From Halichondria panicea (lineage: Eukaryota > Porifera > Demospongiae > Suberitida > Halichondriidae), in assembly GCF_963675165.1 (NCBI RefSeq), contig NC_087385.1:268501-332500 (forward strand): a DNA stretch of 64,000 nucleotides, read 5' to 3'. Under the pieces are notes generated by a model. It made no database searches. It saw only the letters and a list, made by a program, of their open reading frames with translations, and was not told the origin of the DNA. This document shows, piece by piece, positions 1,617 through 58,674 of the stretch. Numbering within the stretch: position 1 is the first letter of the stretch; each line of letters starts with the position of its first letter. The position numbers and the translations under genes were made by a program.

Positions 1617-2213
1617 TGCAGTCAATTCACGATCTTTTGTGGACAAATCTCGAATTTTTGAAGCTAATTCTCGATCTTTCTCTTGCAACTCTAGTTGGTG
1701 GTAACGTTGAGTGTCGTGCTCTCTCTGCTGTGCTGCTCGTAACTGTTGTTCCAGAGACCTGACCCGGTCTTGAGAGGAGTGGTCGCTGGTCTCACTGACT
1801 GATGAGGCACGAGCAGTTGCTTGTCTGATCCTCTTCTCACTCAGTCGCTGGGCGGAGCCTCTAGTGTCGTTGTGGGCCACATCCACGAGAGCCCACTTCC
1901 CAGCCGAGGGTCCAGCAACAGAAGCTGAGGGTCCAGTCAACTCTGTAGGGGGGATTAAGGAACAAATGTAACAGTATATGCATTCAGAGTCATTGACACA
2001 TGTATTGTGTGTACTTGTCTATCAGACAATAGTTGCCATGGCTACATGTACTAGTAGCTGCTCACCAAATCTCAGTATGGTGGTCTCAGCAATGACATCC
2101 ACCCCCACCTTCTGCAGGCCTCCAAACACGAGGACCTCAGTGAGTCCTGGTCCCAGACTGGTGGCAGTGATGGAGTGGTAGTAACGTGGTGTCATTGACT
2201 CAGGAGGTGTCAC
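1617..2213 (-). pseudogene. Kelch-kinase fragment K0 (Kelch blade 6 plus start of coiled coil)
   Basis: Two minus-strand exons match the complete Kelch-kinase genes of this window. Exon 4 (2066-2213) encodes the sixth Kelch blade (VTPPESMTPRYYHS ... VLVFGG). The start of exon 5 (1617-1942) encodes TGPSASVAGPSAGKW and a coiled coil rich in Gln/Glu/Arg. Homology stops near 1617, where the sequence switches to DnaJ intron; the kinase domain is absent. Upstream, homology stops near 2230. The blade-6 cassette after VFGG (LQKVGVDVIAE) is unlike that of any complete copy, so this is a separate family member and not a copy of K1. Confidence 0.8.
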
Positions 2214-2336
2214 CTGGAGGCACAAAAAATAATGAATAATAAAAAACTAAATTGAGCATTCCGTGTTGAGTGTACGGTAAGATGGCGAGAGAAAAGCCAA
2301 CATCCCCCAACTATACCTTTTGTATATTCTCTCAAA

Positions 2337-2408
2337 ACACACACACACACACATACCCACACACACACACACACCACACACACACACACACCACACACAC
2401 ACACACAG
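2337..2408. repeat. (AC)n microsatellite before DnaJ exon E, copy J0
   Basis: An AC tract ending in the CACACAG acceptor of exon E. It is the inverse of the GT tract before exon D, so the two flank exon D as inverted repeats in most units. Confidence 0.9.
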
Positions 2409-2601
2409 GAGTTGGAGTGTCTCTTGCCCACAGGACCTGGCCCCACTAGCACTGGACCCAGAGGCAGAGGAAGTGGATATGATAGAGAGTAAGGGGACGA
2501 GGGGAGTGGGGGGGGCACAAGGAGGTGGAGCCATATACGATAAAGATGAGGAGGATAAAGGAGTGGGCAGGGCACAGAGGGTGGGCTGCTCTCAACAGTG
2601 A

Positions 2602-2898: not shown

Positions 2899-5800
2899 TT
2901 AAAAGGGTGCTATTTTGTTCAGTTCCACCATCACCTGTGCCATGCTGGGTCGATGGCTGGGCTCTCTCTCAATACAGCCGAGTATCAGCTCGTACACTGC
3001 AGGACGCTCTCTCTTGATTCTCTCAAACATCTCAGGGAAATTGTCTTGACTCGGAAATCGACTGGCAGTCACTTCAGCCAACACAATGCCGTAGCTGTAC
3101 ACGTCAATCTTGACAGTTTGTGGAGGAGGTCGTACAAGCGGTTGAGGGATGACTTCAGGAGGGGAGTAGATTATGGCCCCCTCTCCCATCGTATGAGCAT
3201 GCTGCAGGAAGTTGGCTGAGCCCAGGTCAGAGACCTTCCCCTTCCACTGGTGGTTGGGCATTCGCTGGAGGAGGACGTTGGGAGCACTCACATCACGGTG
3301 GATGATGGGATCGTAGCGCTGGTGCAGGTAGTCCAGAGCTAGGGCAATGTCCATGAAGATCGAGAGGCGGTTTCCTGGGTCCAGTTGATTCTCTTCGTAC
3401 GCTTGTCGAAGATTCATGTCCAGAAGCTCGGTGATGATGAGAGGAGGGGACTGGTCAAACACTGCCCCAATGAACTGCACCAGGTTGGGGTGTCGTACTT
3501 CAGCCAAGAGCCTCATTTCTCTCTGGAGTCTCTCCAGATTGCGAGGGTTGACAATGGCAGCAAAGAGTCGCTTGACGGCCACGCTCACTGTTCCCTCCAG
3601 CACCTCCCCCCATCCTCCAGTGCCAATCGTTCTCATCGTGATCACTCTGTTGGCCGGAATCCTCCACACCTCTGTGTTGTGTGCTGACAACTCTTTCGTC
3701 TTGCCTTCTAACTCCCTCTCTAAAGCTGTGATTCGAGCAGACAGGTCAGCTTCTCTTCTGTTGGCCTCAGCCAATTCTCGATCTTTCCCTTGTAAAAGTA
3801 ATTGTGTAGCTTGCTCTCTTTGCTCTGCCAGCTGTGCTCTTTCCTCCGCATCTCCATGACGACGGTTGGCCTCGGTCAATTCTCTAGCTTGTGTAGCTAA
3901 TTCTCGATCCTTCTCTTGCAACTGTAGTTGGTGGTGACGTTGAGTGTCGTGCTCTCTCTGCTCTGCTGCTCGTATCTGTTGTTCCAGAGCCCTCACCCGG
4001 TTTTGAGAGGAGTGGTCGCTGGTCTCACTGACTGATGAGGCACGAGCAGTTGCTTGTGTGATCCTCTTCTCTCTCAGTCGCTGGGCGGAGCCTCTAGTGT
4101 CGTTGTGGGCCACATCCACGAGAGCCCACTTCCCAGCCGAGGGTCCAGCAACAGACGCTGAGGGTCCAGTCAACTCTGTAGGGGGATTAAGGAACAAATG
4201 TAACAGTATATGCATTCAGAGTCATTGACACATGTATTGTGTGTACTTGTCTATCAGACAATAGTTGCCATGGCTACATGTACTAGTAGCTGCTCACCAA
4301 ATCTCAGTATGGTAGTCTCAGTAACAGTCATATAATCCTCCTGCTGGCCTCCAAACACGAGGACCTCAGTGAGTCCTGGTCCCAGACTGGTGGCAGTGAT
4401 GGAGTGGAAGCAACGTGGTGTCATTGACTCAGGAGGTGTCACCTGGAGGCACAAAAAATAATGCTCTGATAAATAAATGTTGAGTGTACAGTAGTACTGT
4501 GTATTCTGAACAGATCATCAGATAATCCATGTACTGTATGAAATAAATATAACATTACAACACGAGGAATCTCAAGGCTATGTGTTTTATATTACAGTGA
4601 CCCTTTACCAAATTATGCCTCGAGGCTACGCGACCGTGTACGGAAGGGACTGTAAGACTTTTATTACATGCTTGTAACCTTGACAACGTGATATAATACA
4701 GTAAAGGTGTGTGTACATAGCACAAGTATTTAACATCCTCCTAGACTTCAAAGTTATTTACTCTTGTAAATGAACGTCTCGTATCTCTTTATTACGTCCA
4801 TTTATTACACGTACACTAACAGTTTATAATAAGACAAGACTCACCTCTGTCCACTGGACAGTGTCTACATCCAGTATCCATGTGTCCCCCAGTACCTTGT
4901 TGCCATCATCCACTCCTCCGTACACCAGTAGTTGAGGGTGGTCCTGGCCATAGTTGAGACAACAGGCAGCATGGACTGCCCTCTCCACTGGCCATGGCTC
5001 TCCCTGTACTGGCTTCACCTTAGTGACCTCCTACACACAGTGAACACACAGTATTGTGCATTTCAATGTGGCAGTACTAATTCCAACTCACCATGGTCCT
5101 GAAGTCAAACAAGTAGACTTCATTGAGCCTACCACGACGACCAGATTGGATCCCTCCAAAGAGGACTGCCCTGTGCTGGGCCACCATGGTGAAGGTGAAG
5201 CCAGCACAGGGAGGAGGTCTCTCTCCTCTGAGCTCAGGGGACGACCAGACACCTGAAAGTGGGGGTGGGGCAATTTAGAGAATGGTACAATGTTACATCA
5301 TCCTTATAACATTGATTGATATGAAAGTGAACATGGTTTCCTATGTGAGTGAGGGTGGGACTCCGCCCACCAGTAGCTAGATACCCTATAAGTGTATGCA
5401 ATGAAAACATACAGTGTATGCAATGAAAACATACAGTGAATGTGCACGTTGAAAAAATTTACCATTTTGTGTGTCAAAGAAATGAAACTCGTTTGTGTAT
5501 CCACTGGTGAATGTTGATCCTGGTTGTGTGGTGCCCTCAATACCGAGTCCTCCAAAGCAGCACAGAGTTCTCTCATTCACACGGACAAGTCCACAGCCAG
5601 CTTTTTTCATAGGTTGACTACCAGAGGTTTGAACTTTGGTCCACTGGAGAGTGTCCAGATCAAGCTTGCTCATGTCATTGACGTAAGAAGACCCATCACT
5701 ACCACCAAAGGTGTACAGGCAACGACTTACACAAACAGAGCAACCAGCATACTCTCCAGGGGGTAGAGGTCCAGTGGTGGGCAAGAGGCTCCACAGCTCA

Positions 5801-5928
5801 GTGCTTGGATCATACACAGCAATGATGTTAGACCCCTTTCCTGGACCCCACCCCCTCCACATGTAATGGCGTCCGTCAACTGCAGAGAATTAGCCATAAC
5901 GAGGTGATGGTTCAACTGGAGCATCCAT
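2899..5928 (-). pseudogene. Kelch / coiled-coil / protein kinase gene K1 (nonsense codon near start)
   Basis: Five exons: 5463-5928, 5092-5252, 4845-5030, 4298-4442, 2899-4175, with GT-AG sites and phases 1/0/0/1 as in the intact copies. Exons 1-4 give six Kelch blades, exon 5 a coiled coil and a TKL-like kinase (GTGGWGEV loop, VAVK lysine, HRDVSAPN catalytic loop, DLG in place of DFG, DVYSYG). CAA is replaced by TAA at codon 13 (5890-5892), so the normal product cannot be made. The next in-frame Met is codon 23 (5862), so a slightly shortened protein is possible. The kinase C-lobe (RPPPQTVKIDVYSYG, FPSQDNFPEMF) differs from all other copies. Probably inactivated recently, since the rest of the frame is open. 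Confidence 0.8.
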
Positions 5929-9406: not shown

Positions 9407-12400
9407 TTAAAAGGGTGCTATTTTGTTCAGTTCCACCATCACCTGTGCCATGCTGGGTCGATGGCTGGGCTCTCTCTTAGTGCAGTGGAGTATCAGCTCG
9501 TACACTGCAGGACGCTGCCTCTGTACTTGGAGAATCATGTCTCGATAATGTTCAGCACTTGGGAATCGACTAGCGGTCACCTCACAGAGGACAATGCCGT
9601 AGCTGTACACATCGATCTTGACAGACTGTCTCAGAGGTGGAGTGAGAGGATCAAAGGCTTGAGGGATGACTTCAGGAGGGGAGTAGATTATGGCCCCCTC
9701 TCCCATCGTATGAGCATGCTGCAGGAAGTTGGCTGAGCCCAGGTCAGAGACCTTCCCCTTCCACTGGTGGTTGGGCATTCGCTGAAGGAGGACGTTGGGA
9801 GCACTCACATCACGGTGGATGATGGGATCGTAGCGCTGGTGCAGGTAGTTCAGAGCTAGGGCAATGTCCATGAAGATCGAGAGACGATTTCCTGGGTCCA
9901 GTTGATTCCTCTCGTACGCTTGTCGGAGATTCATGTCCAAAAGCTCGGTGATGATGAGAGGAGGGGATCGATTGGCTTGGTTTGGCTTATCAAAAATAGC
10001 ACCAATGAATTGCACAAGGTTTGGGTGTCGCACTTCAGCCAATAGCTACATTTCTCTCTCCATTTTCTCGATGTAGATTGGGAGAGCAATTTCTTCGTGT
10101 AGTTGCTTGACAGCCACGCTCACGGTTCCCTCCAGCACCTCCCCTCACCCTCCTTTGCCAATCCTCCTGCCAATGATCACTCTGTTGGCCGGAATCCTCC
10201 ACACCTCTGTGTTGTGTGCTGCCAACTCTTTCGTCTTGCCTTCTAACTCTCTCTCTAGAGCTGTGATTCGAGCAGACAGGTCAGCTTCTCTTCTGTTGGC
10301 CTCAGCCAATTCACAATCTTTCACTTGTAAAAGTAATTGTGTAGCTTGCTCTCTTTGCTCTGCCAGCCGTGCTCTTTCCTCAGCATCTCCATGACGACGG
10401 TTGGCCTCGGTTAATTCTCTAGCTTGTGTAGCTAATTCTCGATCTTTCTCTTGCAACTGTAGTTGGTGGTGACGTTGAGTGTCGTGCTCTCTCTGCTCTG
10501 CTGCTCGTAACTGTTGTTCCAGAGCCCTCACCCGGTCTTGAGAGGAGTGGTCGCTGGTCTCACTGACTGATGAGGCACGAGCAGTTGCTTGTCTGATCCT
10601 CTTCTCACTCAGTCGCTGGGCGGAGCCTCTAGTGTCGTTGTGGGCCACATCCACGAGAGCCCACTTCCCAGCCGAGGGTCCAGCAACAGACGCTGAGGGT
10701 CCAGTCAACTCTGTAGGGGGGATTAAGGAACAAATGTAACAGTATATGCATTCAGAGTCATTGACACATGTATTGTGTGTACTTGTCTATCAGACAATAG
10801 TTGCCATGGCTAGTAGCTGCTCACCAAATCTCAGTATGGTGGTCTCAGCAACTATCTTATCATTCTCCAAATTGCCTCCAAACACGAGGACCTCAGTGAG
10901 TCCTGGTCCCAGACTGGTGGCAGTGATGGAGTGGAAGCAACGTGGTGTCATTGACTCAGGAGGTGTCACCTGGAGGCACAAAAAATAATGCTCTGATAAA
11001 TAAATGTTGAGTGTACAGTAGTACTGTGTATTCTGAACAGATCATCAGATAATCCATGTACTGTATGAAATAAATATAACATTACAACACAAGGAATCTC
11101 AAGGCTATGTGTTTTATATTACAGTGACCCTTTACTAAATTATACTTCGAGGCTACGCGACCGTGTACGGAAGGGACTGTATGACTTTTATTACACGCTT
11201 GTAACCTTGACAACGTGATGTAATACAGTAAAGGTGTGTGTACATAGCATAAGTATTTAACATCCTCCTAGACTTCAAAGTTATTTACTCTTGTAAATGA
11301 ACGTCTCGTATCTCTTTATTACGTCCATTTATTACACGTACACTAACAGTTCATAATAAGACAAGACTCACCTCTGTCCACTTGACAGTGTCTACATCCA
11401 GTATCCACAAGTCCCCCAGTATCTTGTTGCCATTATCCACTCCTCCGTACACCAGTAGTTGAGGGTGGTCCTGGCCATAGTTGAGACAACAGGCAGCATG
11501 GACTGACCTCTCCACTGGCCATGGCTCTCCCTGTACTGGCTTCACCTTAGTGACTTCCTACACACAGTGAACACACAGTATTGTGCATTTCAATGTGGCA
11601 GTACTAATTCCAACTCACCATGGTCCTGAAATTGAACAGGTAGACTTCATTGACCTCACCACGGCCAGATTGGTTCCCTCCAAAGAGGACTGCCTTGTGC
11701 TGGTCCACCATAGTGAAGGTGAAGGCACAACAGGGAGGAGGTCTCTCTCCTCTGAGCTCAGGGGACAACCAGACACCTGGAAGTGGGGGTGGGGCAATTT
11801 AGAGAATGGTACAATGTTACATCATCCTTATAACATTGATTGATATGAAAGTGAACATGGTTTCCTATGTGAGTGAGGGTGGGACTCCGCCCACCAGTAG
11901 CTAGATACCCTATAATTGTATGTAACGAAAACATACAGCGAATGTGCATCGACAAAAGTTACCATTTTGTGTGTCAAAGAAATGGAACTCGTTTGTCCTT
12001 CCACTTCCATCAGACCGTCCAGTCTTGGTGAATGTTGATCCTGGTTGTGTGGGGCCCTCAATACCTTCTCCTCCAAAGCAGCACAGAGTTCTCTCATTCA
12101 CACGGACAAGTCCACTGAAAGCTTTTTTCATAGGCTGACTACCAGAGGTTTGAACGTTGGTCCACTGGAGAGTGTCCAGATCAAGCTTGCTCATGTCATT
12201 GAAGTAAGAAGACTCATCACTACCACCAAAGGTGTACAGGCAACAACCTACACAAACAGAGCAACCACCTGCCTCTCCAGGGGGTAGAGGTCCAGTGGTG
12301 GGCAAGAAGCTCCACAGCTCAGTGCTTGGATCATACACAGCAATGATGTTAGACCCTAGTCCTGGACCAAGCCCCCTCCACGTACATGTAATGGTGTCCG

Positions 12401-12453
12401 TCAACTGCAGAGAATTGACCCATACGAGGTGATGGTTCAACTGGAGCATCCAT
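9407..12453 (-). pseudogene. Kelch / coiled-coil / protein kinase gene K2 (frameshift and two nonsense codons)
   Basis: Exons 11963-12453, 11619-11776, 11372-11557, 10825-10969, 9407-10710. Three lesions are visible. Exon 1 has four extra bases near 12381-12384 (CATTACATGTACGTGG against CATTACATGTGG), shifting the frame within blade 1. TGA replaces the Trp codon of the glycine-rich loop (10145-10147, GKGG*GEV). TAG replaces a Lys codon after the helix-C Glu (10046-10048). The kinase N-lobe is the second type (IGRRIGKGG, LHEEIALP, EPNQANRSPP-like insert), shared only with K3. Blade cassettes differ from all other copies. This is a clear pseudogene that still preserves splice sites. Confidence 0.88.
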
Positions 12454-17479: not shown

Positions 17480-20400
17480 TTAAAAGGGTGCTATTTTGTT
17501 CAGTTCCACCATCACCTGTGCCATGCTGGGTCGATGGCTGGGCTCTCTCTTAGTGCAGTGGAGTATCAGCTCGTACACTGCAGGATGCTGCCTCTGTACT
17601 TGGAGAATCATGTCTCGATAATGTTCAGCACTTGGGAATCGACTAGCGGTCACCTCACAGAGGACAATACCGTAGCTGTACACATCGATCTTGACAGACT
17701 GTCTTGGAGGTGGAGTGAGAGGATCAAAGGCTTGAGGGATGACTTCAGGAGGGGAGTAAATTATGGCCCCCTCTCCCATCGTATGAGCATGCTGCAGGAA
17801 GTTGGCTGAGCCCAGGTCAGAGACCTTCCCCTTCCACTGGTGGTTGGGCATTCGCTGGAGGAGGACGTTGGGAGCACTCACATCACGGTGGATGATGGGA
17901 TCGTAGCGCTGGTGCAGGTAGTTCAGAGCTAGGGCAATGTCCATGAAGATGGAGAGACGATTTCCTGGGTTCAGTTGATTCCTCTCGTACGCTTGTCGGA
18001 GATTCATGTCCAGAAGCTCGGTGATGATGAGAGGAGGGGATCGATTGGCTTGGTTTGGCTCATCAAAAATAGCACCAATGAATTGCACAAGGTTTGGGTG
18101 TCGCACTTCAGCCAATAGCTTCATTTCTCTCTCCATTTTCTCGATGTAGATTGGGAGAGCAATTTCTTCGTGTAGTCGCTTGACGGCCACGCTCACTGTT
18201 CCCTCCAGCACCTCCCCCCACCCTCCTTTGCCAATCCTCCTGCCAATGATCACTCTGTTGGCCGGAATCCTCCACACCTCTGTGTTGTGTGCTGCCAACT
18301 CTTTCGTCTTGCCTTCTAACTCCCTCTCTAGAGCTGTGATTCGAGCAGACAGGTCAGCTTCTCTTCTGTTGGCCTCAGCCAATTCTCGATCTTTCACTTG
18401 TAAAAGTAATTGTGTAGCTTGCTCTCTTTGCTCTGCCAGCTGTGCTCTTTCCTCCGCATCTCCATGACGACGGTTGGCCTCCGTTAATTCTCTAGCTTGT
18501 GCAGTTATTTCTCGATCTTTCTCTTGCAACTGTAGTTGGTGGTGACGTTGAGTGTCGTGCTCTCTCTGCTCTGCTGCTCGTAACTGTTGTTCCAAAGCCC
18601 TCACCCGGTCTTGAGAGGAGTGGTCGCTGGTCTCACTGACTGATGAGGCACGAGCAGTTGCTTGTCTGATTCTCTTCTCACTCAGTCGCTGGGCGGAGCC
18701 TCTAGTGTCGTTGTGGGCCACATCCACGAGAGCCCACTTCCCAGCCGAGGGTCCAGCAACAGACGCTGAGGGTCCAGTCAACTCTGTAGGGGGGATTAAG
18801 GAACAAATGTAACAGTATATGCATTCAGAGTCATTGACACATGTATTGTGTGTACTTGTCTATCAGACAATAGTTGTCATGGCTACATGTACTAGTAGCT
18901 GCTCACCAAATCTCAGTATGGTGGTTTCGGCAATGGCATCTCCCACCTCCCGCTGGCCTCCAAACACGAGGACCTCAGTGAGTCCTGGTCCCAGACTGGT
19001 GGCAGTGATGGAGTGGTAGTAACGTGGTGTCATTGACTCAGGAGGTGTCACCTGGAGGCACAAAAAATAATTCTGTGATAAATAAAATTAATGTTGAGTG
19101 TACAGTAGTACTGTGTATTCTGAACAGATCATCAGATAATCCATGAAATAAATAAAACATTACACGAGGAATCTCAAGGCTATGTGTTTTATATTACAGT
19201 GACCCTTTACCAAATTATGCCTCGAGGCTACGCGACCGTGTACGGAAGGGACTGTACGACTTTTATTACACGCTTGTAACCTTGACAACGTGATATAATA
19301 CAGTAAAGGTGTGTGTACATAGCACAAGTATTTAACATCCTCCTAGAATTCAAAGTTCAAAGTTATTTACTCTTGTAAATGAACGTCTCGTATCTCTTTA
19401 TTACGTCCATTTATTACACGTACACTAACAGTTCATAATAAGACAAGACTCACCTCTGCCCACTTGACAGTGTCTACATCCAGCATCCACATGTCCCCCA
19501 GTGTCTTGCTGCCATCATCCGCTCCTCCGTACACCAGTAGTTGAGGGTGGTCCTGGCCATAGTTGAGACAACAGGCAGCATGTAGTGACCTCTTCACTGG
19601 CCGTGGCTCTCCCTGTACTGGCTTCACCTTAGTGACCTCCTACACACAGTGAACACACAGTATTGTGCATTTCAATGTGGCATGCAGTACTAATTCCAAC
19701 TCACCATGGTCCTAAAATTAAACAAGTAGACGTCATTGAGCCTACCACGGCCAAGTTTGAACCCACCAAAGAGGACTGCCCTGTGCTGGTCCACCATGGT
19801 GAAGGTGAAGGCAGCACAGGGAGGAGGTCTCTCTCCTCTGAGCTCAGGGGACGACCAGACACCTGGAAGTGGGGGTGGGGCAATTAGAGAATGGTACAAT
19901 GTTACATCATCCTTATAACATTGATTGATATGAAAGTGAACATGGTTTCCTATGTGAGTGAGGGTGGGACTCCGCCCACCAGTAGCTAGATACCCTATAA
20001 GTGTATGCAATGAAAACATACAGCGAATGTGCACGTTGAAAAAAATTTACCATTTTGTGTGTCAAAAAAATGAAACTCGTTTGTCTTGGTGAATGTTGAT
20101 CCTAGTTGTGTGATGCCCTCAATACTTTCTCCTCCAAAGCAGCACAGAGTTCTCTCATTCACACGGACAAGTCCACTGAAAGCCTTTTTCTTAGGCTGAC
20201 TACCAGAGGTTTGAACTTTGGTCCACTGGAGAGTGTCCAGATCAAGCTTGCTCATGTCATTGACGTAAGAAGACCCATCATGACCACCAAAGGTGTACAG
20301 GCAACGACCTACACAAACAGAGCAACCACCCTGCTCTCCAGGGGGTAGAGGTCCAGTGGTGGGCAAGAGGCTCCACAGCTCAGTGCTTGGATCATACACA

Positions 20401-20510
20401 GCAATGATGTTAGACCCTCGTCTTGGACCATACCCCTTCCACATGTAATGACGTCCGTCAACTGCAGAGAATTGACCATAACGAGGTGATGGTTCAACTG
20501 GAGCATCCAT
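17480..20510 (-). CDS. Kelch propeller / coiled-coil / TKL-like protein kinase K3 (intact, 750 aa)
   Basis: Five exons: 20051-20510, 19705-19862, 19454-19639, 18907-19051, 17480-18783. All have GT-AG sites and consistent phases (1, 0, 0, 1), giving 750 codons plus stop. The start is ATG GAT GCT (20510); an in-frame ATG at 20531 lies before a plausible acceptor and is less likely. Residues 1-316 form six Kelch blades, each with a Gly-Gly and a later Trp. About 371-483 is a Glu/Gln/Arg coiled coil. About 488-750 is the kinase: GKGGWGE 501-507, Lys518, Glu536, HRD Asp617, Asn622, DLG Asp639, SPPE 660-663. All catalytic residues are present, with DLG for DFG. No signal peptide or membrane segment, so cytosolic. 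Predicted Ser/Thr or Tyr kinase of TKL type, ligand unknown. N-lobe is the second subtype, shared with K2. Confidence 0.88.
18926..18955 (-). other. Hypervariable blade-6 cassette (K3 example)
   Basis: This stretch of exon 4 encodes QREVGDAIAE between VLVFGG and TTILRF. The equivalents are LQKVGVDVIAE (K0), QQEDYMTVTE (K1), NLENDKIVAE (K2), RRKGGFAIAE (K4 and K7), ISENNEIVAE (K5) and RSVIVPYAK (K6). The flanking 40 or so codons are almost identical in all copies. Equivalent positions: about 4318-4346, 10848-10873, 28874-28900, 37388-37414, 46716-46741, 57045-57071. Confidence 0.85.
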
Positions 20511-30200: not shown

Positions 30201-30503
30201 GTCCAGATCAAGCTTGCTCATGTCATTGAAGTAAGAAGACCCATCACGACCACCAAAGGTGTACAGGCAACGACCTACACAAACAAAGCAACCACTACAC
30301 TCTCCAGGGGGTAGAGGTCCAGTGGTGGGCAAGAGGCTCCACAGCTCAGTGCTTGGATCATACACAGCAATGATGTTAGACCCCTTTCCTGGACAATACC
30401 CCCTCCACATGTAATGGCGTCCGTCAACTGCAGAGAATTGACCGCAACGAGGTGATGGTTCAACTGGTGGACGACCAAGAATGGAGCGAACAGCTTTCAA
30501 CAT
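27235..30503 (-). CDS. Kelch / coiled-coil / TKL-like kinase K4 (intact, alternative N-terminus, 740 aa)
   Basis: Exons 29990-30503, 29645-29802, 29398-29583, 28851-28995, 27235-28454; phases as in K3, 740 codons plus stop. The N-terminus differs from the usual MDAPVEPSPR: here ATG at 30503 gives MLKAVRSILGRPPVEPSPR, because unrelated sequence begins a few codons into exon 1. An AG acceptor (CTGCAG|ACA) precedes it. A possible upstream exon at about 30648-30713 ends VFHE at a GTGAGT donor in matching phase, so the gene may have gained a new promoter and exon. The coiled coil is different and shorter (SEKREYQLRLQLQEKDRELA...). Kinase is the GTGGWGEV, VNPRNLERLQ subtype. Intron 4 carries a solo LTR. 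Catalytic residues (VAVK, HRD, DLG) are kept. Confidence 0.85.
28562..28829. mobile_element. Solo LTR in K4 intron 4
   Basis: A 268-bp insertion absent from the other Kelch-kinase copies. It begins TGTAATGTAC and ends TTTGTTACA (TG...CA with inverse TGTAA/TTACA). The flanks are CATGC and CATGT; the empty site reads CATGT, so a 5-bp target duplication with one change. Contains a TATA-box-like TATATAAG. Fits a solo LTR of an LTR retrotransposon. No internal polymerase remains. Recurs at 56733-57000. Confidence 0.75.
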
Positions 30504-35955: not shown

Positions 35956-38900
35956 TTAAAAGGGTGCTATTTTGTTCAGTTCCACCATCACCTGTGCCAT
36001 GCTGGGTCGATGGCTGGGCTCTCTCTTAGTGCAGTGGAGTATCAGCTCGTACACTGCAGGATGCTGCCTCTGTACTTGGAGAATCATGTCTCGATAATGT
36101 TCAGCACTTGGGAATCTACTAGCGGTCACCTCACAGAGGACAATGCCGTAGCTGTACACATCGATCTTGACAGACTGTCTCAGAGGTGGAGTGAGAGGAT
36201 CAAAGGCTTGAGGGATGACTTCAGGAGGGGAGTAGATTATGGCCCCCTCTCCCATCGTATGAGCATGCTGCAGGAAGTTGGCTGAGCCGAGGTCAGAGAC
36301 CTTCCCCTTCCACTGGTGGTTGGGCATTCGCTGGAGGAGGACGTTGGGAGCACTCACATCACGGTGGATGATGGGATCGTAGCGCTGGTGCAGGTAGTTC
36401 AGAGCGAGGGCAATGTCCATGAAGATCGAAAGGCGGTTTCCTGGGTCCAGTTGATTCCTCTCGTACGCTTGTCGGAGATTCATGTCCAGAAGCTCGGTGA
36501 TGATGAGAGGAGGGGACTGGTCAAACACTGCCCCAATGAACTGCACCAGGTTGGGGTGTCGTACTTCAGCCAAGAGCCTCATTTCTCTCTGGAGTCTCTC
36601 TAGATTGCGTGGGTTGACAATGGCAGCAAAGAGTCGCTTGACGGCCACCGTCACTGTTCCCTCCAGCACCTCCCCCCATCCTCCAGTGCCAATCGTTCTC
36701 ATCGTGATCACTCTGTTAGCCGGAATCCTCCACACCTCTGTGTTGTGTGCTGCCAACTCTTTCGTCTTGCCTTCTAACTCCCTCTCTAGAGCTGTGATTC
36801 GAGCAGACAGGTCAGCTTCTCTTCTGTTGGCCTCAGCCAATTCTCGACCTTTCACTTGTAAAAGTAATTGTGTAGCTTGCTCTCTTTGCTCTGCCAGCTG
36901 TGCTCTTTCCTCCGCATCTCCATGACGACAATTGGCCTCGGTCAATTCTCTAGCTTGTGTAGCTAATTCTCGATCTTTCTCTTGCAACTGTAGTTGGTGG
37001 TGACGTTGAGTGTCGTGCTCTCTCTGCTCTGCTGCTCGTAGCTGTTGTTCCAGAGCCCTCACCCGGTCTCGAGAGGAGTGGTCGCTGGTCTCACTGACTG
37101 ATGAGGCACGAGCAGTTGCTTGTCTGATCCTCTTCTCACTCAATCGCTGGGCGGAGCCTCTAGTGTCGTTGTGGACCACATCCACGAGAGTCCACTTCCC
37201 AGCCAAGGGTCCAGCAACAGACGCTGAGGGTCCAGTCAACTCTGTAGGGGGGATTAAGGAACAAATGTAACAGTATATGCATTCAGAGTCATTGACACAT
37301 GTATTGTGTGTACTTGTCTATCAGACAATAGTTGCCATGGCTACATGTACTAGTAGCTGCTCACCAAATCTCAGTATGGTGGTCTCAGCAACTATCTCAT
37401 TATTCTCTGAAATGCCTCCAAACACGAGGACCTCAGTGAGTCCTGGTCCCAGACTGGTGGCAGTGATGGAGTGGTAGGAACGTGGTGTCATTGACTCAGG
37501 AGGTGTCACCTGGAGGCACAAAAAATAATGCTCTGATAAATAAATGTTGAGTGTACAGTAGTACTGTGTATTCTGAACAGATCATCAGATAATCCATGTA
37601 CTGTATGAAATAAATATAACATTACAACACGAGGAATCTCAAGGCTATGTGTTTTATATTACAGTGACCCTTTACCAAATTATGCCTCGAGGCTACGCGA
37701 CCGTGTATGGAAGGGACTGTATGACTTTTATTACACGCTTGTAACCTTGACAACGTGACATAATACAGTAAAGGTGTGTGTACATAGCACAAGTATTTAA
37801 CATCCTCCTAGACTTCAAAGTTATTTACTCTTGTAAATGAACGTCTCGTATCTCTTTATTACGTCCATTTATTACACGTACACTAACAGTTCATAATAAG
37901 ACAAGACTCACCTCTGTCCACTTGACAGCGTCAACATTAAGTGTCCACATGTCCCCCAGTGTCTCTTTGCCTTTATCCAGTCCTCCGTACACCAGTAGTT
38001 GAGGGTGGTCCTGGCCATAGTTGAGACAACAGGCAGCATGGCATGCCCTCTCCACTGGCCATGGCTCTCCCTGTACTGGCTTCACCTTAGTGACCTCCTA
38101 CACACAGTGAACACACAGTATTGTGCATTTCAATGTGGCAGTACTAATTCCAACTCACCATGGTATTGAAATTAAACAGGTAGACTTCATTGAGCCTACC
38201 ACGACGACCAGATTGGATCCCTCCAAAGAGGACTGCCCTGTGCTGGTCCACCATGGTGAAGGTGAAGTGGGAACAGGGAGGAGGTCTCTCTCCTCTGAGC
38301 TCAGGGGACGACCAGACACCTGGAAGTGGGGGTGGGGCAATTTAGAGAATGGTACAATGTTACATCATCCTTATAACATTGATTGATATGAAAGTGAACA
38401 TGGTTTCCTATGTGAGTGAGGGTGGGACTCCGCCCACCAGTAGCTAGATACCCTATAAGTGTATGTAATGAAAACATACAGCGAATGTGCACGTTGACAA
38501 AAGTTACCATTTTGTGTGTCAAAGAAATGGAACTCGTTTGTCCGTCCACTTCCATCAGACCGTCCAGTCTTGGTGAATGCTGATCCTGGTTGTGTGGTGC
38601 CCTCAATACCGTATCCTCCAAAGCAGCACAGAGTTCTCTCATTCACACGAACAAGTCCACAGAAAGCCTTTTTCATAGGCTGACTACCAGAGGTTTGAAC
38701 TTTGGTCCACTGGAGAGTGTCCAGATCAAGCTTGCTCATGTCATTAAAATAAGAAGACCGGTCCTTACCACCAAAGGTGTACAGGCAACGACCTACACAA
38801 ACAGAACAACCACCATACTTTCCAGGGGGTAGAGGTCCAGTGGTGGGCAAGAGGCTCCACAGCTCAGTGCTTGGATCATACACAGCAATGATGTTAGACC

Positions 38901-38997
38901 CCTTCAGTCCTGGACCAGCCCCTCTCCACCTGTAATGGTGTCCGTCAACTGCAGAGAATTGACCAAAACGAGGTGATGGTTCAACTGGAGCATCCAT
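35956..38997 (-). CDS. Kelch propeller / coiled-coil / TKL-like kinase K5 (intact, 755 aa)
   Basis: Exons 38508-38997, 38159-38319, 37912-38097, 37365-37509, 35956-37241; phases 1/0/0/1 and 755 codons plus stop. Start at MDAPVEPSPRFG (38997). Six Kelch blades in exons 1-4 (about residues 1-327), a long coiled coil, then the kinase with GTGGWGEV, VAVKRL, HRDVSAPNVLL, SDLGSAN, YSPPEV and DVYSYG. N-lobe of the VNPRNLERLQ subtype. Loops are its own: RYG-GC in blade 2 entry, KDRSSYFND after blade 2 Gly-Gly, ISENNEIVAE in blade 6. Exons 2 and 3 are closest to K1 and K6. Likely a functional cytosolic kinase, target unknown. Confidence 0.88.
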
Positions 38998-43765: not shown

Positions 43766-44610
<845 letters not shown>

Positions 44611-44689
44611 TCATGTGATATGTGTGTGCAGTGTAGGCAGCCTCTCAATACACAGGCCTCCACTGTATAGCAATGTACTTTACCCCCCC

Positions 44690-45286: not shown

Positions 45287-48200
45287 TTAAAAGGGTGCTA
45301 TTTTGTTCAGTTCCACCATCACCTGTGCCATGCTGGGTCGATGGCTGGGCTCTCTCCTAGTGCAGTGGAGTATCAGCTCGTACACTGCAGGACGCTGCCT
45401 CTGTACTTGGAGAATCATGTCTCGATAATGTTCAGCACTTGGGAATCGACTAGCGGTCACCTCACAGAGGACAATACCGTAGCTGTACACATCGATCTTG
45501 ACAGACTGTCTCAGAGGTGGAGTGAGAGGATCAAAGGCTTGAGGGATAACTTCAGGAGGGGAGTAGATTATGGCCCCCTCTCCCATCGTATGAGCATGCT
45601 GCAGGAAGTTGGCTGAGCCCAGGTCAGAGACCTTCCCCTTCCACTGGTGGTTGGGCATTCGCTGGAGGAAGACGTTGGGAGCACTCACATCACGGTGGAT
45701 GATGGGATCGTAGCGCTGGTGCAGGTAGTCCAGAGCGAGGGCAATGTCCTTGAAGATCGAGAGGCGGTTTCTTGGGTCCAGTTGATTCCTCTCGTACGCT
45801 TGTCGGAGATTCATATCCAAAAGCTCGGTGATGATGAGAGGAGGGGACTGGTCAAACACTGCCCCAATGAACTGCACCAGGTTGGGGTGTCGTACTTCAG
45901 CCAAGAACCTCATTTCTCTCTGAAGTCTCTCTAGATTGCGTGGGTTGACAATGGCAGCAAAGAGTCGCTTGACGGCCACCGTCACTGTTCCCTCCAGTAC
46001 CTCCCCCCATCCTCCAGTGCCAATCGTTCTCATCGTGATCACTCTGTTGGCCGGAATCCTCCACACCTCTGTGTTGTGTGCTGACAACTCTTTCGTCTTG
46101 CCTTCTAACTCTCTCTCTAGAGCTGTGATTCGAGCAGACAGGTCAGCTTCTCTTCTGTTGGCCTCAGCCAATTCTCGATCTTTCACTTGTAAAAGTAATT
46201 GTGTAGCTTGCTCTCTTTGCTCTGCCAGCTGTGCTCTTTCCTCCGCATCTCCATGACAACGGTTGGCCTCGGTCAATTCTCTAGCTTGTGTAGCTAATTC
46301 TCGATCTTTCTCTTGCAACTGTAGTTGGTGGTGACGTTGAGTGTCGTGCTCTCTCTGCTCTGCTGCTCGTAGCTGTTGTTCCAGAGCCCTCACCCGGTCT
46401 TGAGAGGAGTGGTCGCTGGTCTCACTGACTGATGAGGCACGAGCAGTTGCTTGTCTGATCCTCTTCTCTCTCAGTCGCTGGGCGGAGCCTCTAGTGTCGT
46501 TGTGGGCCACATCCACGAGAGCCCACTTCCCAGCCGAGGGTCCAGCAACAGACGCTGAGGGTCCAGTCAACTCTGTAGGGGGGATTAAGGAACAAATGTA
46601 ACAGTATATGCATTCAGAGTCATTGACACATGTATTGTGTGTACTTGTCTATCAGACAATAGTTGCCATGGCTACATGTACTAGTAGCTGCTCACCAAAT
46701 CTCAGTATGGTGGTCTTTGCATAGGGTACAATGACAGAACGGCCTCCAAACACGAGGACCTCAGTGAGTCCTGGTCCCAGACTGGTGGCAGTGATGGAGT
46801 GGAGGCAACGTGGTGTCATTGACTCAGGAGGTGTCACCTGGAGGCATAAAATAATGCTCTGATAAATAAATGTTGAGTGTACAGTAGTACTGTGTATTCT
46901 GAACAGATCATCAGATAATCCATGTACTGTATGAAATAAATATAACATTACAACACGAGGAATCTCAAGGATCTGTGTTTTATATTACAGTGACCCTTTA
47001 CCAAATTATGCCTCGAGGCTACGCGAACGTGTACGGAAGGGACTGTATGACTTTTATTACACGCTTGTAACCTTGACAACGTGATATAATACAGTGAAGG
47101 TGTATGTACATAGCACAAGTATTTAACATCCTCCTAGACTTCAAAGTTATTTACTCTTGTAAATGAACGTCTCGTATCTCTTTATTACGTCCATTTATTA
47201 CACGTACACTAACAGTTCATAATAAGACAAGACTCACCTCTGTCCACTGGACAGTGTCTACATCCGACTAGAAAAACATTTGCAATGTGAAAAATTGCTA
47301 GGATTGGCCAGGGGAACCACAAAAAAGCGTGGGAACAAGAAATCAGACGAGAGCATAACTCCAATCCGTTACAACGTCAATCACATGTATACTGGTAGTT
47401 TTCCCATGTTTTCCCAGCCAATATGCCACGCAATTTTTACTGGTGGAGTGATGACCAATCCCTATATATATTTATTATACATCCATTTTAGAATGTGGGG
47501 CACATAATCATGATGATTTGTGATGAATTGATGTTCCTAATACATGCAGTGTAGAGCACAGGTACACACAGTCCATCCATGCGTAGTAACATGCACGGAC
47601 CGTACTGGTGACTGCATGGAATGATGTGGTGGATGGAAGCTGATAGGTGGATCTGGAACACAGTCTATTATTTAATATACTATGTATTGTACATGTTCAT
47701 GACGTTGTAACGGATTGGAGATATGCTCTCGTCTGATTTCTTGTTCCCACGCTTTTTTGTGGTTCCCCTGGCCAATCCTAGCAATTTTTCACATTGCAAA
47801 TGTTTTTCTAGTCGGATTCCCTTTCTTTTTCAGTACAGTTTACGTATCATGACATGCATAAGTGGAACGTCAAGAGGCAGTACAAGAAGAGAAGACAGGA
47901 CTAATCAGATATCTTCTCGAATATCTCTGGACTAATAATTATAGTATAATGAGTAATAATTTATTGCTTGATAATTATGTTGAATTTGCGAATCATTATT
48001 AAATGACAGCCATTTTAAGAGCATGATATCTAGCCAGTGCATATAGCATGCCTGTCAGAGAAAGGGAGCTAGAGCTGAACAGTGTGAAGAAAAGGAGCAC
48101 CTCAGGCTCTGGAAAAGCACTGCTGCACTGATTTTAGGCGCACGGTTTATTAGCCACGCCTATCTATTATTATTGGCCACAACGCAATTGCTGAGTCATT

Positions 48201-48371
48201 AAAGATGGCGGAATTGTCTAGGTGAGAGAAATAGAGACTGAGAGGTCATCTGCCTCGTGGAAGCAATCGCAAATCTGAAGAAGCGCTTTGTAATCCAGGT
48301 TGTAGTCGTTTGGAAACCCTGTGCAGAATGTCCTGGAGATGGCTGTACTTGGAGTAAATGCTGGGCAAGAA

Positions 48372-48412
<41 letters not shown>

Positions 48413-49733
48413 GTCAGTCAGACAAAGAGCGGTGAAACGTCGAAATAGTGCAATTTTTAAAATGAAAATATTCATTCATTAAAATGTTTATGGATTATGA
48501 AATGAGAGATACAAAGAGAGAAAAGGCTAAATAAACTATCTGTTCAGCCAGTTTCTTGATGTGGCCTTTCCCTGCAGAGATAGAACAGTTTGAACATGAG
48601 TCAAAATAATTGAAATATTGCTAAACACGGGCAAACCCACTGCCAATCCTATGTAAAACCTACTGGTTTTACTAATTAAGTGTCCACATGTCCCCCAGAG
48701 CCGTGACGTCATTATCCTGCCCTCCGTACACCAGTAGTTGAGGGTGGTCCTGGCCATAGTTGAGACAACAGGCAGCATGGACTGACCTCTCCACTGGCCA
48801 TGGCTCTCCCTGTACTGGCTTCACCTTAGTGACCTCCTACACACAGTGAACACACAGTATTGTGCATTTCAATGTGGCAGTACTAATTACAACTCACCAT
48901 GGTCCTGAAGTCAAACAAGTACACTTCATTGACTCTACCACTGCCAGATTGGTTCCCTCCAAAGAGGACTGCCCTGTGCTGGTCCACCATGGTGAAGGTG
49001 AAGTGGGAACAGGGAGGAGGTCTCTCTCCTCTGAGCTCAGGGGACGACCAGACACCTGGAAGTGGGGGTGGGGCAATTTACAGAATAGTACAATGTTACA
49101 TCATCCTTATAACATTGATTGATATGAAAGTGAACATGGTTTCCTATGTGAGTGAGGGTGGGACTCCGCCCATCAGTAGCTAGATACCCTATAAGTGTAT
49201 GCAATGAAAACATACAGCGAATGTGCACGTTGACAAAAGTTACCATTTTGTGTGTCAAAGAAATGGAATTCGTTTGTACATCCTGCACTTCCATCAGACA
49301 ATCTAGTCTTGGTGAATGTTGATCCTGGTTGTGTGGTGCCCTCAATACCGTGTCCTCCAAAGCAGCACAGAGTTCTCTCATTCACACGGACAAGTCCACA
49401 GAAAGCCTTTTTCATAGGCTGACTACCAGAGGTTTGAACTTTGGTCCACTGGAGAGTGTCCAGATCAAGCTTGCTCATGTCATTGACGTAAGAAGACCCA
49501 TCATGACCACCAAAGGTGTACAGACAACGACCTACACAAACAGAGCAACCACCCCCCTCTCCAGGGGGTAGAGGTCCAGTGGTGGGCAAGAGGCTCCACA
49601 GCTCAGTGCTTGGATCATACACAGCAATGATGTTAGACCCCAGTCCTGGATCAACCCCCCTCCACAGATAATGGCGTCCGTCAACTGCAGAGAATTGGCC
49701 ATAACGAGGTGATGGTTCAACTGGAGCATCCAT
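45287..49733 (-). pseudogene. Kelch / coiled-coil / kinase gene K6 (exon 3 interrupted by insertion)
   Basis: Exons 49244-49733, 48898-49055, 48675-48836 plus 47238-47265 (exon 3 in two pieces), 46696-46837 and 45287-46572. A 1409-bp insertion (47266-48674) splits exon 3 after GDMWTLN and introduces a stop at once (AATTAG). All other exons are open and in phase, and the kinase has VAVK, HRD, DLG and SPPE. Blade 6 cassette is RSVIVPYAK, one residue shorter than most. Kinase variants include NVFLQR for NVLLQR and SIFKDIA for SIFMDIA. Recently inactivated, unless the insertion is removed as an intron, for which no good splice pair was seen. Confidence 0.82.
47266..47813. mobile_element. Inverted-repeat element in K6 exon 3, 113-bp arms
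   Basis: Arms 47266-47378 and 47701-47813 are inverse (GACTAGAAAAACATTTGCAA ... and its complement at the right end). The inner 320 bp is non-coding. No unambiguous target duplication. Adjacent 47814-48674 is also foreign to the gene: no gene recognised; it contains an (ACTT)n run (about 48370-48412) and 'gtgaaacgtcgaaatagtg' near 48431. It may be one composite insertion or two events. Confidence 0.75.
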
Positions 49734-53545: not shown

Positions 53546-54485
<940 letters not shown>

Positions 54486-55405
54486 GTTATAAAGAAGGAT
54501 TAGATGTAACAATACTCTCATTTCGTTGGCTGTATCTAAATTCCATTGGCTGTAATCCAAATTCCACAAAGGCAATACTCACATTTCATTGGATTAAAAA
54601 TCACATGACATAGGATATGCATTTCATTGGGTCTGGCCACATTCCGCTAGAGCACACGGAAATGCTGCAAGAGTTTCCAGACCTAATCCTAGCTCTCTTG
54701 ATTTTGCCCCCGAGCTATTAGGTCTGGCCCCAGACTAACCAATATACTCTACCCCCCCCACACACACCCACACACACACACCCACACCACACACACACAC
54801 ACAGGAGTTGGAGTGTCTCCTGCCCACAGGACGTGGCCCCACCAGTACTGGACCCAGAGGCAGAGGAAGTGGATATGATAGAGAGTGAGGGGACGAGGGG
54901 AGTGAGCGAGACACAAGGGGGTGGAGCCATATAGAATGAAGATGTGGAGGATGAAGGAGTGGGCGGGGCACAGAGGGTGGGCTGCTCTCAACAGTGACAC
55001 TCTTAGGAACTCTATATTCACCGCTTTGATTGTATTTATGGACTGGTTTTGTGGTTACTGCTATTGTTCTAATTATGTGAATAACATTTCCCCATACCAC
55101 TCATCATAATTATTGTGAACGGTAATATTGATTAGCATGAGACTGAGATAAAGTCAATAGTAATCATCATAATAGGAGAGTGCAAACACACACTACAAAA
55201 GCCAAAGCTAAAAATAAAATTCTAGTAATTAAAAATCAAAATCAAGAAGCTAGCTACTGGATAATTATAAGTGTTCACATTGTTCAAACAATTAGTGTGT
55301 GTATAACACAGAGTCCCACAATGGGTATTAATTATCAACTACAACCTAAACTAAAAAGGAAGCTATACTATAGATAAGTGTTCACCGTATATACATTGTT
55401 CATAG

Positions 55406-58400
55406 TTAAAAGGGTGCTATTTTGTTCAGTTCCACCATCACCTGTGCCATGCTGGGTCGATGGCTGGGCTCTCTCTTAGTGCAGTGGAGTATCAGCTCGT
55501 ACACTGCAGGATGCTGCCTCTGTACTTGGAGAATCATGTCTCGATAATGTTCAGCACTTGGGAATCGACTAGCGGTCACCTCACAGAGGACAATACCGTA
55601 GCTGTACACATCGATCTTGACAGACTGTCTCAGAGGTGGAGTGAGAGGATCAAAGGCTTGAGGGATGACTTCAGGAGGGGAGTAGATTATGGCCCCCTCT
55701 CCCATTGTATGAGCATGCTGCAGGAAGTTGGCTGAGCCCAGGTCAGAGACCTTCCCCTTCCACTGGTGGTTGGGCATTCGCTGGAGGAGGACGTTGGGAG
55801 CACTCACATCACGGTGGATGATGGGATCGTAGCGCTGGTGCAGGTAGTTCAGAGCGAGGGCAATGTCCATGAAGATCGAGAGGCGGTTTCCTGGGTCCAG
55901 TTGATTCTCTTCGTACGCTTGTCGGAGATTCATGTCCAGAAGCTCGGTGATGATGAGAGGAGGGGACTGGTCAAACACTGCCCCAATGAACTGCACCAGG
56001 TTGGGGTGTCGTACTTCAGCCAAGAGCCTCATTTCTCTCTGGAGTCTCTCCAGATTGCGTGGGTTGACAATGGCAGCAAAGAGTCGCTTGACGGCCACCG
56101 TCACTGTTCCCTCCAGCACCTCCCCCCATCCTCCAGTGCCAATCGTTCTCATCGTGATCACTCTGTTGGCCGGAATCCTCCACACCTCTGTGTTGTGTGC
56201 AGCCAACTCTTTTGTCTTGCCTTCTAACTCCCTCTCTAGAGCTGTGATTCGAGCAGACAGGTCAGCTTCTCTACTGTTGGCCTCAGTCATTTCACGATCT
56301 TTTGTAGCCAAATCTCTAGCTTGTGTAGCTAATTCAAGGTCTTTAATAGCCAATTCACGATCCTTCTCTTGTAAAAGTAATTGCATAGCCTGGTCTGCAT
56401 CTTGATAACGACGGTTGGCCTCAGACAATTCACGGTTTTTGGTGACTAATTCTCTAGCTTGTGTAGCCAATTCACGATCCTTTTCTTGCAACTGTAGTCG
56501 GAGTTGATACTCTCTCTTCTCACTCAGTCGCTGGGTGGAGCCTCTAGTGTCGTTGTGGGCCACATCCACGAGAGCCCACTTCCCAGCCGAGGGTCCAGCA
56601 ACAGACGCTGAGGGTCCAGTCAACTCTGTAGGGGGGATTAAGGAACAAATGTAACAGTATATGCATTCAGAGTCATTGACACATGTATTGTGTGTACTTG
56701 TCTATCAGACAATAGTTGCCATGGCTACATGCTGTAATGTACTCTGTACTATGGACTATTGGTGTCATAATTGGACGACTCTTTGGATCATTGGTTCCAG
56801 ACTGTTCTTATTTATTCAGATTGTTCTCAATAGACTTAGTAGTTGTTTCTTGTTCTTTTATTTGTTCTATAGATCATTCTAGATACTTAGGTTGGTATAT
56901 AAGCAGGTGTGTTTTTGTTATACAGTGTGTTGTAAATGTTGAAGGTCATTCTATTGCGATTACGTTCCGAATACAAGGCATACCGCTCGGCTTTGTTACA
57001 CATGTACTAGTAGCTGCTCACCAAATCTCAGTATGGTGGTCTCAGCAATGGCAAATCCCCCCTTCCGACGGCCTCCAAACACAAGGACCTCAGTGAGTCC
57101 TGGTCCCAGACTGGTGGCAGTGATGGAGTAGAAGTAACGTGGTGTCATTGACTCAGGAGGTGTCACCTGGAGGCACAAAAAATAATGCTCTGATAAATAA
57201 ATGTTGAGTGTACAGTAGTACTGTGTATTCTGAACAGATCATCAGATAATCCATGTACTGTATGAAATAAATATAACATTACAACACGAGGAATCTCAAG
57301 GCTATGTGTTTTATATTACAGTGACCCTTTACCAAATTATGCCTCGAGGCTACGTGACCGTGTACGGAAGGGACTGTATGACTTTTATTACACGCTTGTA
57401 ACCTTGACAACGTGATATAATACAGTAAAGGTGTGTGTACATAGCACAAGTATTTAACATCCTCCTAGACTTCAAAGTTATTTACTCTTGTAAATGAACG
57501 TCTCGTATCTCTTTACTACGTCCATTTATTACACGTACACTAACAGTTCATAATAAGACAAGACTCACCTCTGCCCACTTGACAGTGTCTACATCCAGTA
57601 TCCACATTACCCCCGGTGTCTTGTAGCCATTATCCACTCCTCCGTACACCAGTAGTTGAGGGTGGTCCTGGCCATAGTTGAGACAACAGGCAGCATGGGC
57701 TAACCTCCCCACTGGCCATGGCTCTCCCTGTACTGGCTTCACCTTAGTGACCTCCTATACACAGTGAACACACAGTATTGTGCATTTCAATGTGGCAGTA
57801 CTAATTCCAACTCACCATGGTCCTGAAGTCAAACATGTAGACTTCATTGACCACACCACGGTCAGGTTGCCACCCTCCAAAGAGGACTGCCCTGTGCTGG
57901 TCCACCATGGTGAAGGTGAAGGAACTACAGAGAGGAGGTCTCTCTCCTCTGAGCTCAGGGGACGACCAGACACCTGAAAGTGGGGGTGGGGCAATTTAAG
58001 AATGGTACAATGTTACATCATCCTTATAACATTGATTGATATGAAAGTGAACATGGTTTCCTATGTGAGTGAGGGTGGGACTCCGCCCACCAGTAGCTAG
58101 ATACCCTATAAGTGTATGCAACGAAAACATACAGCAAATGTGCACGTTGACAAAAGTTACCATTTTGTGTGTCAAAGAAATGGAACTCGTTTGTCTGTCC
58201 ACTTCCATCAGACCGTCCAATCTTGGTGAATGTTGATCCTGGTTGTGTGGTGCCCTCAATACCTTCTCCTCCAAAGCAGCACAGAGTTCTCTCATTCACA
58301 CGGACAAGTCCACAGTAAGCCTTTTTCATAGGCTGACTACCAGAGGTTTGAACGTTGATCCACTGGAGAGTGTCCAGATCAAGCTTGCTCATGTCATTGA

Positions 58401-58674
58401 AGTAAGAAGACCCATCACGACCACCAAAGGTGTACAGGCAACGACCTACACAAACAAAGCAACCACTACACTCTCCAGGGGGTAGAGGTCCAGTGGTGGG
58501 CAAGAGGCTCCACAGCTCAGTGCTTGGATCATACACAGCAATGATGTTAGACCCCTTTCCTGGACAATACCCCCTCCACATGTAATGGCGTCCGTCAACT
58601 GCAGAGAATTGACCGCAACGAGGTGATGGTTCAACTGGTGGACGACCAAGAATGGAGCGAACAGCTTTCAACAT
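55406..58674 (-). CDS. Kelch / coiled-coil / TKL-like kinase K7 (same as K4)
   Basis: Exons 58161-58674, 57816-57973, 57569-57754, 57022-57166, 55406-56625; protein identical to K4 (740 aa, MLKAVRSILGRPPVEPSPR start, short coiled coil, GTGGWGEV kinase). The solo LTR in intron 4 is at 56733-57000. Either a second functional locus or the same locus assembled twice. Confidence 0.85.
56733..57000. mobile_element. Solo LTR in K7 intron 4
   Basis: Same 268-bp TG...CA insertion, with CATGC/CATGT flanks, as at 28562-28829. Confidence 0.75.

Follow-up and report, generated by a model that had tools for sequence, protein, structure and literature searches.

A Kelch-kinase gene family of the sponge Halichondria panicea with a propeller face under diversifying selection

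The DNA analysed here (the window) is a stretch of 64,000 bases from the sponge Halichondria panicea, bases 268501-332500 of contig C9 (7,054,234 bases, in a genome of 131 Mb). It holds seven Kelch-kinase genes, K1 to K7, all on the minus strand, and each encodes a Kelch propeller, then a long helical (coiled-coil-like) stretch, then a TKL-type kinase. Strong diversifying selection acts on the top face of the propeller, and its other parts are constrained. K5 (35956..38997), which has an intact reading frame with GT-AG introns and encodes 755 amino acids, was used as the reference. Its five coding exons lie at 38997-38508, 38319-38159, 38097-37912, 37509-37365 and 37241-35956. Exons 1-4 encode the propeller (residues ~1-327), and exon 5 encodes the helical stretch (residues ~354-497 in an AlphaFold2 model) and the kinase (~507-748), which together form the C-terminal half. 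From its sequence, we call the helical stretch a putative coiled coil. NCBI model P0001 equals K5 in length and is 98% identical to it over all 755 residues; in Pfam, P0001 matches Kelch_KLHDC2_KLHL20_DRC7 (PF24681) with 159.3 bits against a cut-off of 50, and PK_Tyr_Ser-Thr with 111.8 bits against a cut-off of 23.1. The K5 kinase part carries the motifs GTGGWGEV, VAVK (526), HRDVSAPN (620) and SDLG (643), the last three of which presumably supply the catalytic Lys, the HRD Asp and the DFG-type Asp. By domain score and catalytic residues, it is predicted to be a kinase of TKL type.

K3 (17480..20510) and K4 (27235..30467) are also complete in five exons, with no stop or frameshift found; the initial residues of K4 differ from those of K5, and its start codon is provisional. 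K7 (55406..58638) is a copy of K4 within a 9,516-base repeat, in which positions 54485-64000 equal 26314-35829 but for one mismatch, at 32747, outside the K4/K7 gene. The repeat is apparently part of a ~28 kb block present twice on C9, as a recent duplication or an unresolved haplotype. The remaining genes are damaged: K1 (2899..5928) by a single stop in exon 1, its other exons being without visible stop; K2 (9407..12453) by a frameshift in exon 1 together with two stop codons in exon 5; and K6 (45287..49733) by a 1,412-base insertion (47264-48675) that breaks exon 3. The distinct, visibly undamaged genes of the window are therefore three, K3, K4 and K5. Because the first 126 bases of the K6 insertion recur inverted (97%) at insertion bases 427-554, it may be a mobile element. 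A fragment at 1641..2213, on the same strand, is limited to exon 4 plus the initial 100 residues of exon 5.

The family extends well outside the window. Searching the genome with exon 1 yielded 80 matches, which were reduced to 73 places by merging four fragment pairs and dropping three weak matches (28-34%). There are thus at least 73 propeller-exon places, 68 on C9 (0.04-4.2 Mb) and 5 on contigs C4, C5, C8 and C16, and many members stand in tandem. Fifty of the 73 were fetched and 11 of these dropped (stop, frameshift, missing or cut-off exon). The other 39 have four open exons with splice sites, and removal of two exact duplicates left 37 distinct propellers. The family is large and probably still expanding.

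A first-pass annotation of the window, made by lining up K1-K7, had claimed that propeller variation concentrates in two loops per blade. The residues it quoted match the translations of the seven genes, that of blade 1 in K2 being readable only across the frameshift. We transcribed its positions as 33 codons in K5 numbering and compared them with the codons selected in a site model of all 37 genes. The proposed concentration was borne out, the selected codons being 24 of the 33 listed and 14 of the other 292 (Fisher P 2e-19). In each blade, the variable positions are one or two residues preceding strand A (the DA loop) and the residues following Gly-Gly (the BC loop). The most variable K5 positions include 11, 27, 61, 78, 112, 129, 146, 180, 197, 235, 260, 289, 290, 311 and 314, and the sets of loop residues are all different among the 37 propellers.

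Variation also extends beyond the first-pass list, to the BC loop of blade 1 (27, 30) and the long BC loop of blade 3 (129, 144-152). In the blade-1 loop, codon 27 is selected (38917..38919; these and the following K5 coordinates are on the minus strand). Selected codons of blade 2 include codon 61 in the entry (DA) loop (38815..38817) and codon 78, the first after Gly-Gly, in the BC loop (38764..38766). Blade 3 contributes codons 111-112 of its entry (DA) loop (38662..38667) and, in the BC region formed by codons 144-152 (38542..38568), codons 144, 146, 147, 150 and 152. Within the blade-4 BC loop (codons 197-203, 38201..38221), selection falls on 197, 199, 201, 202 and 203. Codons 234-235 of the blade-5 entry (DA) loop (38044..38049) are selected, as are 256, 257, 258, 260 and 262 of the BC loop of that blade (codons 256-262, 37963..37983). 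In blade 6, they are codons 289-290 of the entry (DA) loop (37477..37482) and 311, 312, 314 and 315 of the BC loop (codons 311-315, 37402..37416), the length of which differs among copies.

The site model was our own grid-based, FUBAR-like code rather than HyPhy or PAML, with free silent and amino-acid rates and kappa fixed at 2.6. Codons at which the amino-acid rate exceeds the silent rate, P(beta>alpha)>0.9, number 39 of 326 in the 37 propellers when each exon is given its own tree, and 43 of 326 with one tree. When the ratio of the two rates (omega) is permitted to exceed 1, twice the log likelihood rises by 800 (per-exon trees) or 1,468 (one tree). To avoid circularity, the 33 codons fixed beforehand were tested on the 34 genes outside the window. 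There, the ratio of non-synonymous to synonymous rates (dN/dS) is 2.04 at the loops (gene-bootstrap range 1.77-2.42) and 0.59 in the framework (0.54-0.65), an excess over both 1 and the framework such as the first-pass reading called for. In a tree-free bound, a selected codon has 6.3 amino-acid states in addition to the first, compared with 0.59 base states for a four-fold site.

The faces of the propeller were assigned from the strands of an AlphaFold2 full-length model, residues 4-14 being counted as a DA loop. The model has a mean predicted local distance difference test score (pLDDT) of 59 and a predicted template-modelling score (pTM) of 0.48, with kinase-part residues 489-691 below 50, and was used for the propeller strands only. 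By our reading, it draws strands A-C for six blades and strand D for five, at a pLDDT of 70-94 for most blocks of blades 2-6. Under per-exon trees, the selected sites include 34 of the 154 DA/BC loop residues, none of the 42 AB/CD loop residues and 4 of the 126 strand residues; the corresponding counts from a single tree are 37, 1 and 4. As far as the model can place them, nearly all selected sites thus sit in the top-face DA and BC loops, in line with the earlier expectation that they would cluster on one face.

The first-pass annotation had drawn its comparison with KEAP1, in which, as in other BTB-Kelch proteins, ligand contacts lie in the same two kinds of loop; these proteins are ligase adaptors with BTB and BACK domains. 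We used KLHDC2 instead, the solved Kelch that comes nearest both in sequence (E 8e-30) and in fold (top rank in Foldseek, best row E 2.9e-25, with target template-modelling scores of 0.79-0.83 for most Kelch-only chains). In the available text on its crystal structure, a bound compound contacts Arg236, Arg241, Ser269, Tyr163, Trp191, Trp270 and Lys147, and Arg236, Arg241 and Ser269 also recognise the degron end (PMC11377542); the available part of a second source predicts Arg189 as a pocket residue by docking (PMC12169847). Mapping was by sequence alignment, with a chain-numbering offset of one inferred from residue identities. Lys147 aligns with K5 residue 112, Arg189 and Trp191 with 150 and 152, Arg236 with 197, and Ser269 and Trp270 with 234 and 235. 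Of the eight pocket residues named in those texts, seven coincide with selected sites, compared with a background of 38 in 308 (P 1.9e-6); when Arg189 is left out, the figure is six of seven (P 1.6e-5). The KLHDC2-type carboxylate pair is not maintained: residue 197 (Arg236) is Arg in 5 of 37 propellers and residue 234 (Ser269) is Ser in 23 of 37. KLHDC2 also differs in being a CUL2 ligase receptor for C-terminal di-glycine, whereas the C-terminal part of the sponge protein is a kinase.

The kinase was described in the first-pass annotation as constant. This holds within the main type but not across the family, as propellers are joined to three types of kinase. For the main type (A), the kinase domain was tested at 25 of 30 loci after removal of two with stops and three duplicates; omega is 0.33, with 85 of 265 codons under purifying selection and a single positive codon (at 0.92). 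Lying in the same arrays, the constrained kinases also provide a control on the site model. The pairing of propellers with kinases was based on 71 entries from 144 matches, with two fragment pairs merged and the 42-60% rows and most weak rows left out. Behind the 73 propellers stand 42 kinases of type A (82-100% identical to the K5 kinase), 4 of type B (72-76%) and 20 of type C (35-41%), and for 7 there is none among those 71 best-candidate entries. The sister propellers L017 and L024 (2% framework difference, bootstrap 100) bear types A and C. We also considered whether kinase type tracks propeller ancestry, and found little association: 10 changes on the propeller tree, itself weakly supported, where shuffling gave 12.5 on average and 8 at the least. 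In exon 5, identity between P0001 (type A) and P0015 (type C) is ~0.9 over the first 80 columns and ~0.75 over the next 80, then below 0.3. Because this collapse starts within the helical stretch, recombination in that repetitive part may swap kinases. Parts of two neighbouring copies are also combined in the predicted NCBI isoform P0002 (LOC135340740 isoform X2): its propeller is that of the copy at 353.9 kb, and its kinase matches exactly the one in the next copy, the twin of the damaged K6. Either real splicing or an artefact of prediction may account for this.

The closest solved structure to the kinase part is plant CTR1, and TAK1, MLK and RAF are also among the best PDB matches; the regulatory domains of these four kinases are other than a Kelch propeller. 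On hydropathy alone, K5 has no strongly hydrophobic segment, in agreement with the earlier description of the proteins as cytosolic. No transmembrane segment was found in K5 on a simple scale, the highest 19-residue hydropathy being 1.27, inside the kinase. Further kinases occur elsewhere in the genome. A cluster at C9:532748-620978, 44-72% identical to the K5 kinase, has no Kelch exon-1 match nearby, and dozens of kinase matches at C3:0.86-2.46 Mb form a second large kinase cluster.

The window has several other features. Nearly unbroken GT repeat occupies ~860 bases at 43769-44628, with shorter GT tracts between other copies. An open reading frame on the plus strand with a Vts1-like RNA-binding match (PF25479, 44 bits) is present in both repeat copies, at 33183-33722 and 61354-61893. 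An Rfam scan of the window gave no match at gathering score.

Related proteins on other contigs were compared in two sets. The distant set consists of 16 of 17 exon-1 proteins that are 49-55% identical to K5, and we infer that it comes from another sponge. Its mean entropy is 1.61 at 16 sites selected in H. panicea and 0.47 at 140 others (Mann-Whitney P 2e-6); its variability correlates with that of H. panicea over 156 positions (rank correlation 0.42), and 8 of its 15 most variable positions are H. panicea selected sites. The second set comprises 62 of 120 listed exon-1 proteins, of unstated origin, and hints at within-species diversity. Six of these (P0093, P0100, P0103, P0145, P0147 and P0154) show 1-3 framework changes and 6-12 loop changes relative to the nearest C9 copy. 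Eighteen of the 62 equal a C9 copy in the loops, and 16 of those 18 are also equal in the compared framework.

The nearest parallel is the HET-D/HET-E (hnwd) family of the fungus Podospora anserina, in whose WD40 propeller, according to the available text, four codons are positively selected, one pair in the d-a loop and one in the b-c turn, all at the propeller top (PMC1805685). As far as that source goes, both families have a beta-propeller recognition domain, selection at top-face d-a/b-c positions, and inactivated members. They differ in that the fungal proteins have WD40 repeats with NACHT and HET domains, and the sponge proteins a Kelch propeller with a TKL kinase in an animal. In addition, HET-D/HET-E exchange near-identical repeat units within and between genes, whereas the sponge blades differ from one another and whole genes multiply. 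NACHT and WD40 are absent from the Pfam listings of P0001 and P0017, which contain only Kelch-type propeller and kinase families. On this comparison, the resemblance is a likeness of design, not membership. Among sponges, Geodia barretti P0078 (734 amino acids, annotated as leucine-rich repeat receptor kinase SERK2) also combines a kinase with Kelch repeats, but with the kinase first and Kelch last, and at 28% identity over one third of the query. The portion of the literature that our search reached contained no description of a sponge Kelch-kinase family. In the accessible part of one study, two other sponges each have one listed Kelch-motif gene whose expression was lower after exposure to microbial patterns, a link to the present family not being shown (PMC6208332).

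We consider the best explanation to be a large family of putative cytosolic sensor kinases with a diversified propeller face, and place its probability at roughly 0.6. Each propeller would bind a different protein or peptide via its DA and BC loops, in the manner of KLHDC2; ligand binding would gather the proteins through the coiled coil; and the TKL-type kinase would then relay the signal. Known Kelch receptors bind peptides by these loops, coiled coils join molecules, and RAF-like TKL kinases act when clustered. A less certain step is that the ligands vary between individuals or microbes, which would make the family a germline-encoded repertoire for recognising non-self in immunity or allorecognition. 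Such a role, which the first-pass annotation had also raised, is plausible by analogy. More tentatively, the family could be an immune or allorecognition repertoire that has converged on the HET-D/HET-E design, its kinases being combined through coiled-coil recombination and perhaps splicing between neighbours; we regard this fuller account as possible, with the odds somewhat against it.

Alternatively, each propeller could fit its kinase to another internal substrate in signalling or development, the diversity being subfunctionalisation of duplicates. In its favour, Kelch propellers such as KLHDC2 serve cellular ligases as substrate receptors, in the text available on that protein. This reading does not sit well with 37 distinct loop sets. 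Similar pairs indicate how fast the loops change: L026 and L030 are 0.9% apart in introns and 2.7% in framework, yet differ at 27 of 47 loop residues; L017 and L024 are 1.3% and 2.1% apart, yet differ at 17 of 43. Even the 12 pairs closest by framework differ at 4 to 27 loop residues, and the loop-rich changes of the six proteins on other contigs also argue against it. We think it an unlikely source of the pattern.

Silent sites were used to ask whether amino-acid selection, mutation or old variants lie behind the loops. We compared 48 codons, either selected or on the first-pass list, with their surroundings, counting four-fold sites with equal first two bases. The fraction of pairs in which such sites differ is 0.069 inside the 48 codons, 0.064 at a distance of one codon and 0.050 at nine codons or more, while the residues encoded by the 48 codons are different in 0.62 of comparisons. 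In the 38 hypervariable codons, mean third-position entropy is 0.80 as against 1.71 expected from the amino acids. Because the four-fold excess is small and third positions are conserved, the diversity appears to be young and the force appears to act on amino acids; silent sites near background argue against both hypermutation and old alleles.

These data bear directly on the idea that gene conversion homogenises everything but old loop variants, with little new selection today. Concerted evolution is plausible for tandem arrays, distances between exons correlate at merely 0.28-0.62, and similar pairs such as L026/L030 have strongly different loops; some gene conversion is likely. Old variants, however, should carry silent changes, and third positions are conserved, while four-fold sites one or two codons off are near background (0.064-0.071 against 0.050). 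Whole-exon shuffling among the propellers was looked for and rejected by one strict criterion, as 0 of 666 pairs have one exon less than 0.7% and another more than 6% apart. As an account of the loops, gene conversion of this kind is therefore rather improbable.

A loop-directed, codon-precise, template-driven mutator whose products selection merely filters is very unlikely. At the top sites, first and second codon positions are near saturation and the third is not, and 4 of the 6 bases at residues 197-198 are different between L025 and L027, copies that diverge by 0.2% in their framework and introns. The codon-position pattern is nevertheless explained by amino-acid selection, silent sites within and beside selected codons are near background, and the exact duplicates L009/L010 and L031/L032 have identical propeller exons, though these may be assembly artefacts. 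The L025/L027 difference (alignment columns 215-216, blade-4 loop) resembles short-tract exchange or a multi-base mutation. It is equally hard to believe that unresolved haplotypes have swollen copy number and diversity, as the nearly exact double presence of the ~28 kb block might suggest: there are just 2 exact duplicates among 39 intact propellers, 5 of the 73 places are on other contigs, and the 18 of 62 other-contig proteins that match a C9 copy in the loops, though perhaps from the same animal, also speak against it. Such an artefact bears more on copy number than on loop pattern. Relaxed constraint, with loops simply free to drift, is scarcely credible even though several copies are broken and propeller loops are often tolerant of change, since drift cannot surpass the silent rate (residues differ in 0.62 of comparisons, silent sites in ~0.05-0.07), loop dN/dS outside the window is 2.04, barring strong constraint on silent sites, and at most one of the 42 opposite-face AB/CD residues is selected.

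Several observations weigh against a family of sensor kinases with a selected top face. Site-wise rates may be inflated, as many tree nodes have weak support and recombination within exons lies outside the model, and the counting method puts the silent rate of the loops at 2.5 times that of the framework (range 1.98-3.20). This last excess probably reflects codons changed more than once, but the small four-fold excess remains. Blade 1 of the structural model is of low confidence (pLDDT ~49-65), and the one-tree analysis selects residue 274, on the bottom face. Four selected sites (129, 150, 152 and 268) fall on strands as the model draws them, the first three of which align with KLHDC2 pocket residues, and Arg241 of KLHDC2 aligns with an unselected site (P 0.63). 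The kinase test is somewhat uneven (twice the log-likelihood difference, 14.5). Residues 78 and 129 are outside the 15 most variable positions of the distant set, and P0129 and P0132 have framework differences from a C9 copy (2 and 1 residues) but no loop differences. Finally, damage is seen in three of the seven genes in the window, as it would be in any family that evolves by birth and death.

How sponges recognise self and non-self, and distinguish friend from foe, at the molecular level has long been an open question, and the diversified sensor-kinase family is a concrete candidate for it, offering dozens of putative receptors, a face of ~40 residues and a kinase read-out. The family also represents a set of naturally diversified Kelch scaffolds on a near-constant frame. 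If the more tentative account, with kinases recombined behind the propellers, is true, recognition and response would combine freely. If confirmed, the family would be an animal counterpart of the fungal propeller receptors, and would demonstrate that propeller-kinase fusions can act as a diversified receptor class in the way that NLRs or receptor kinases do.

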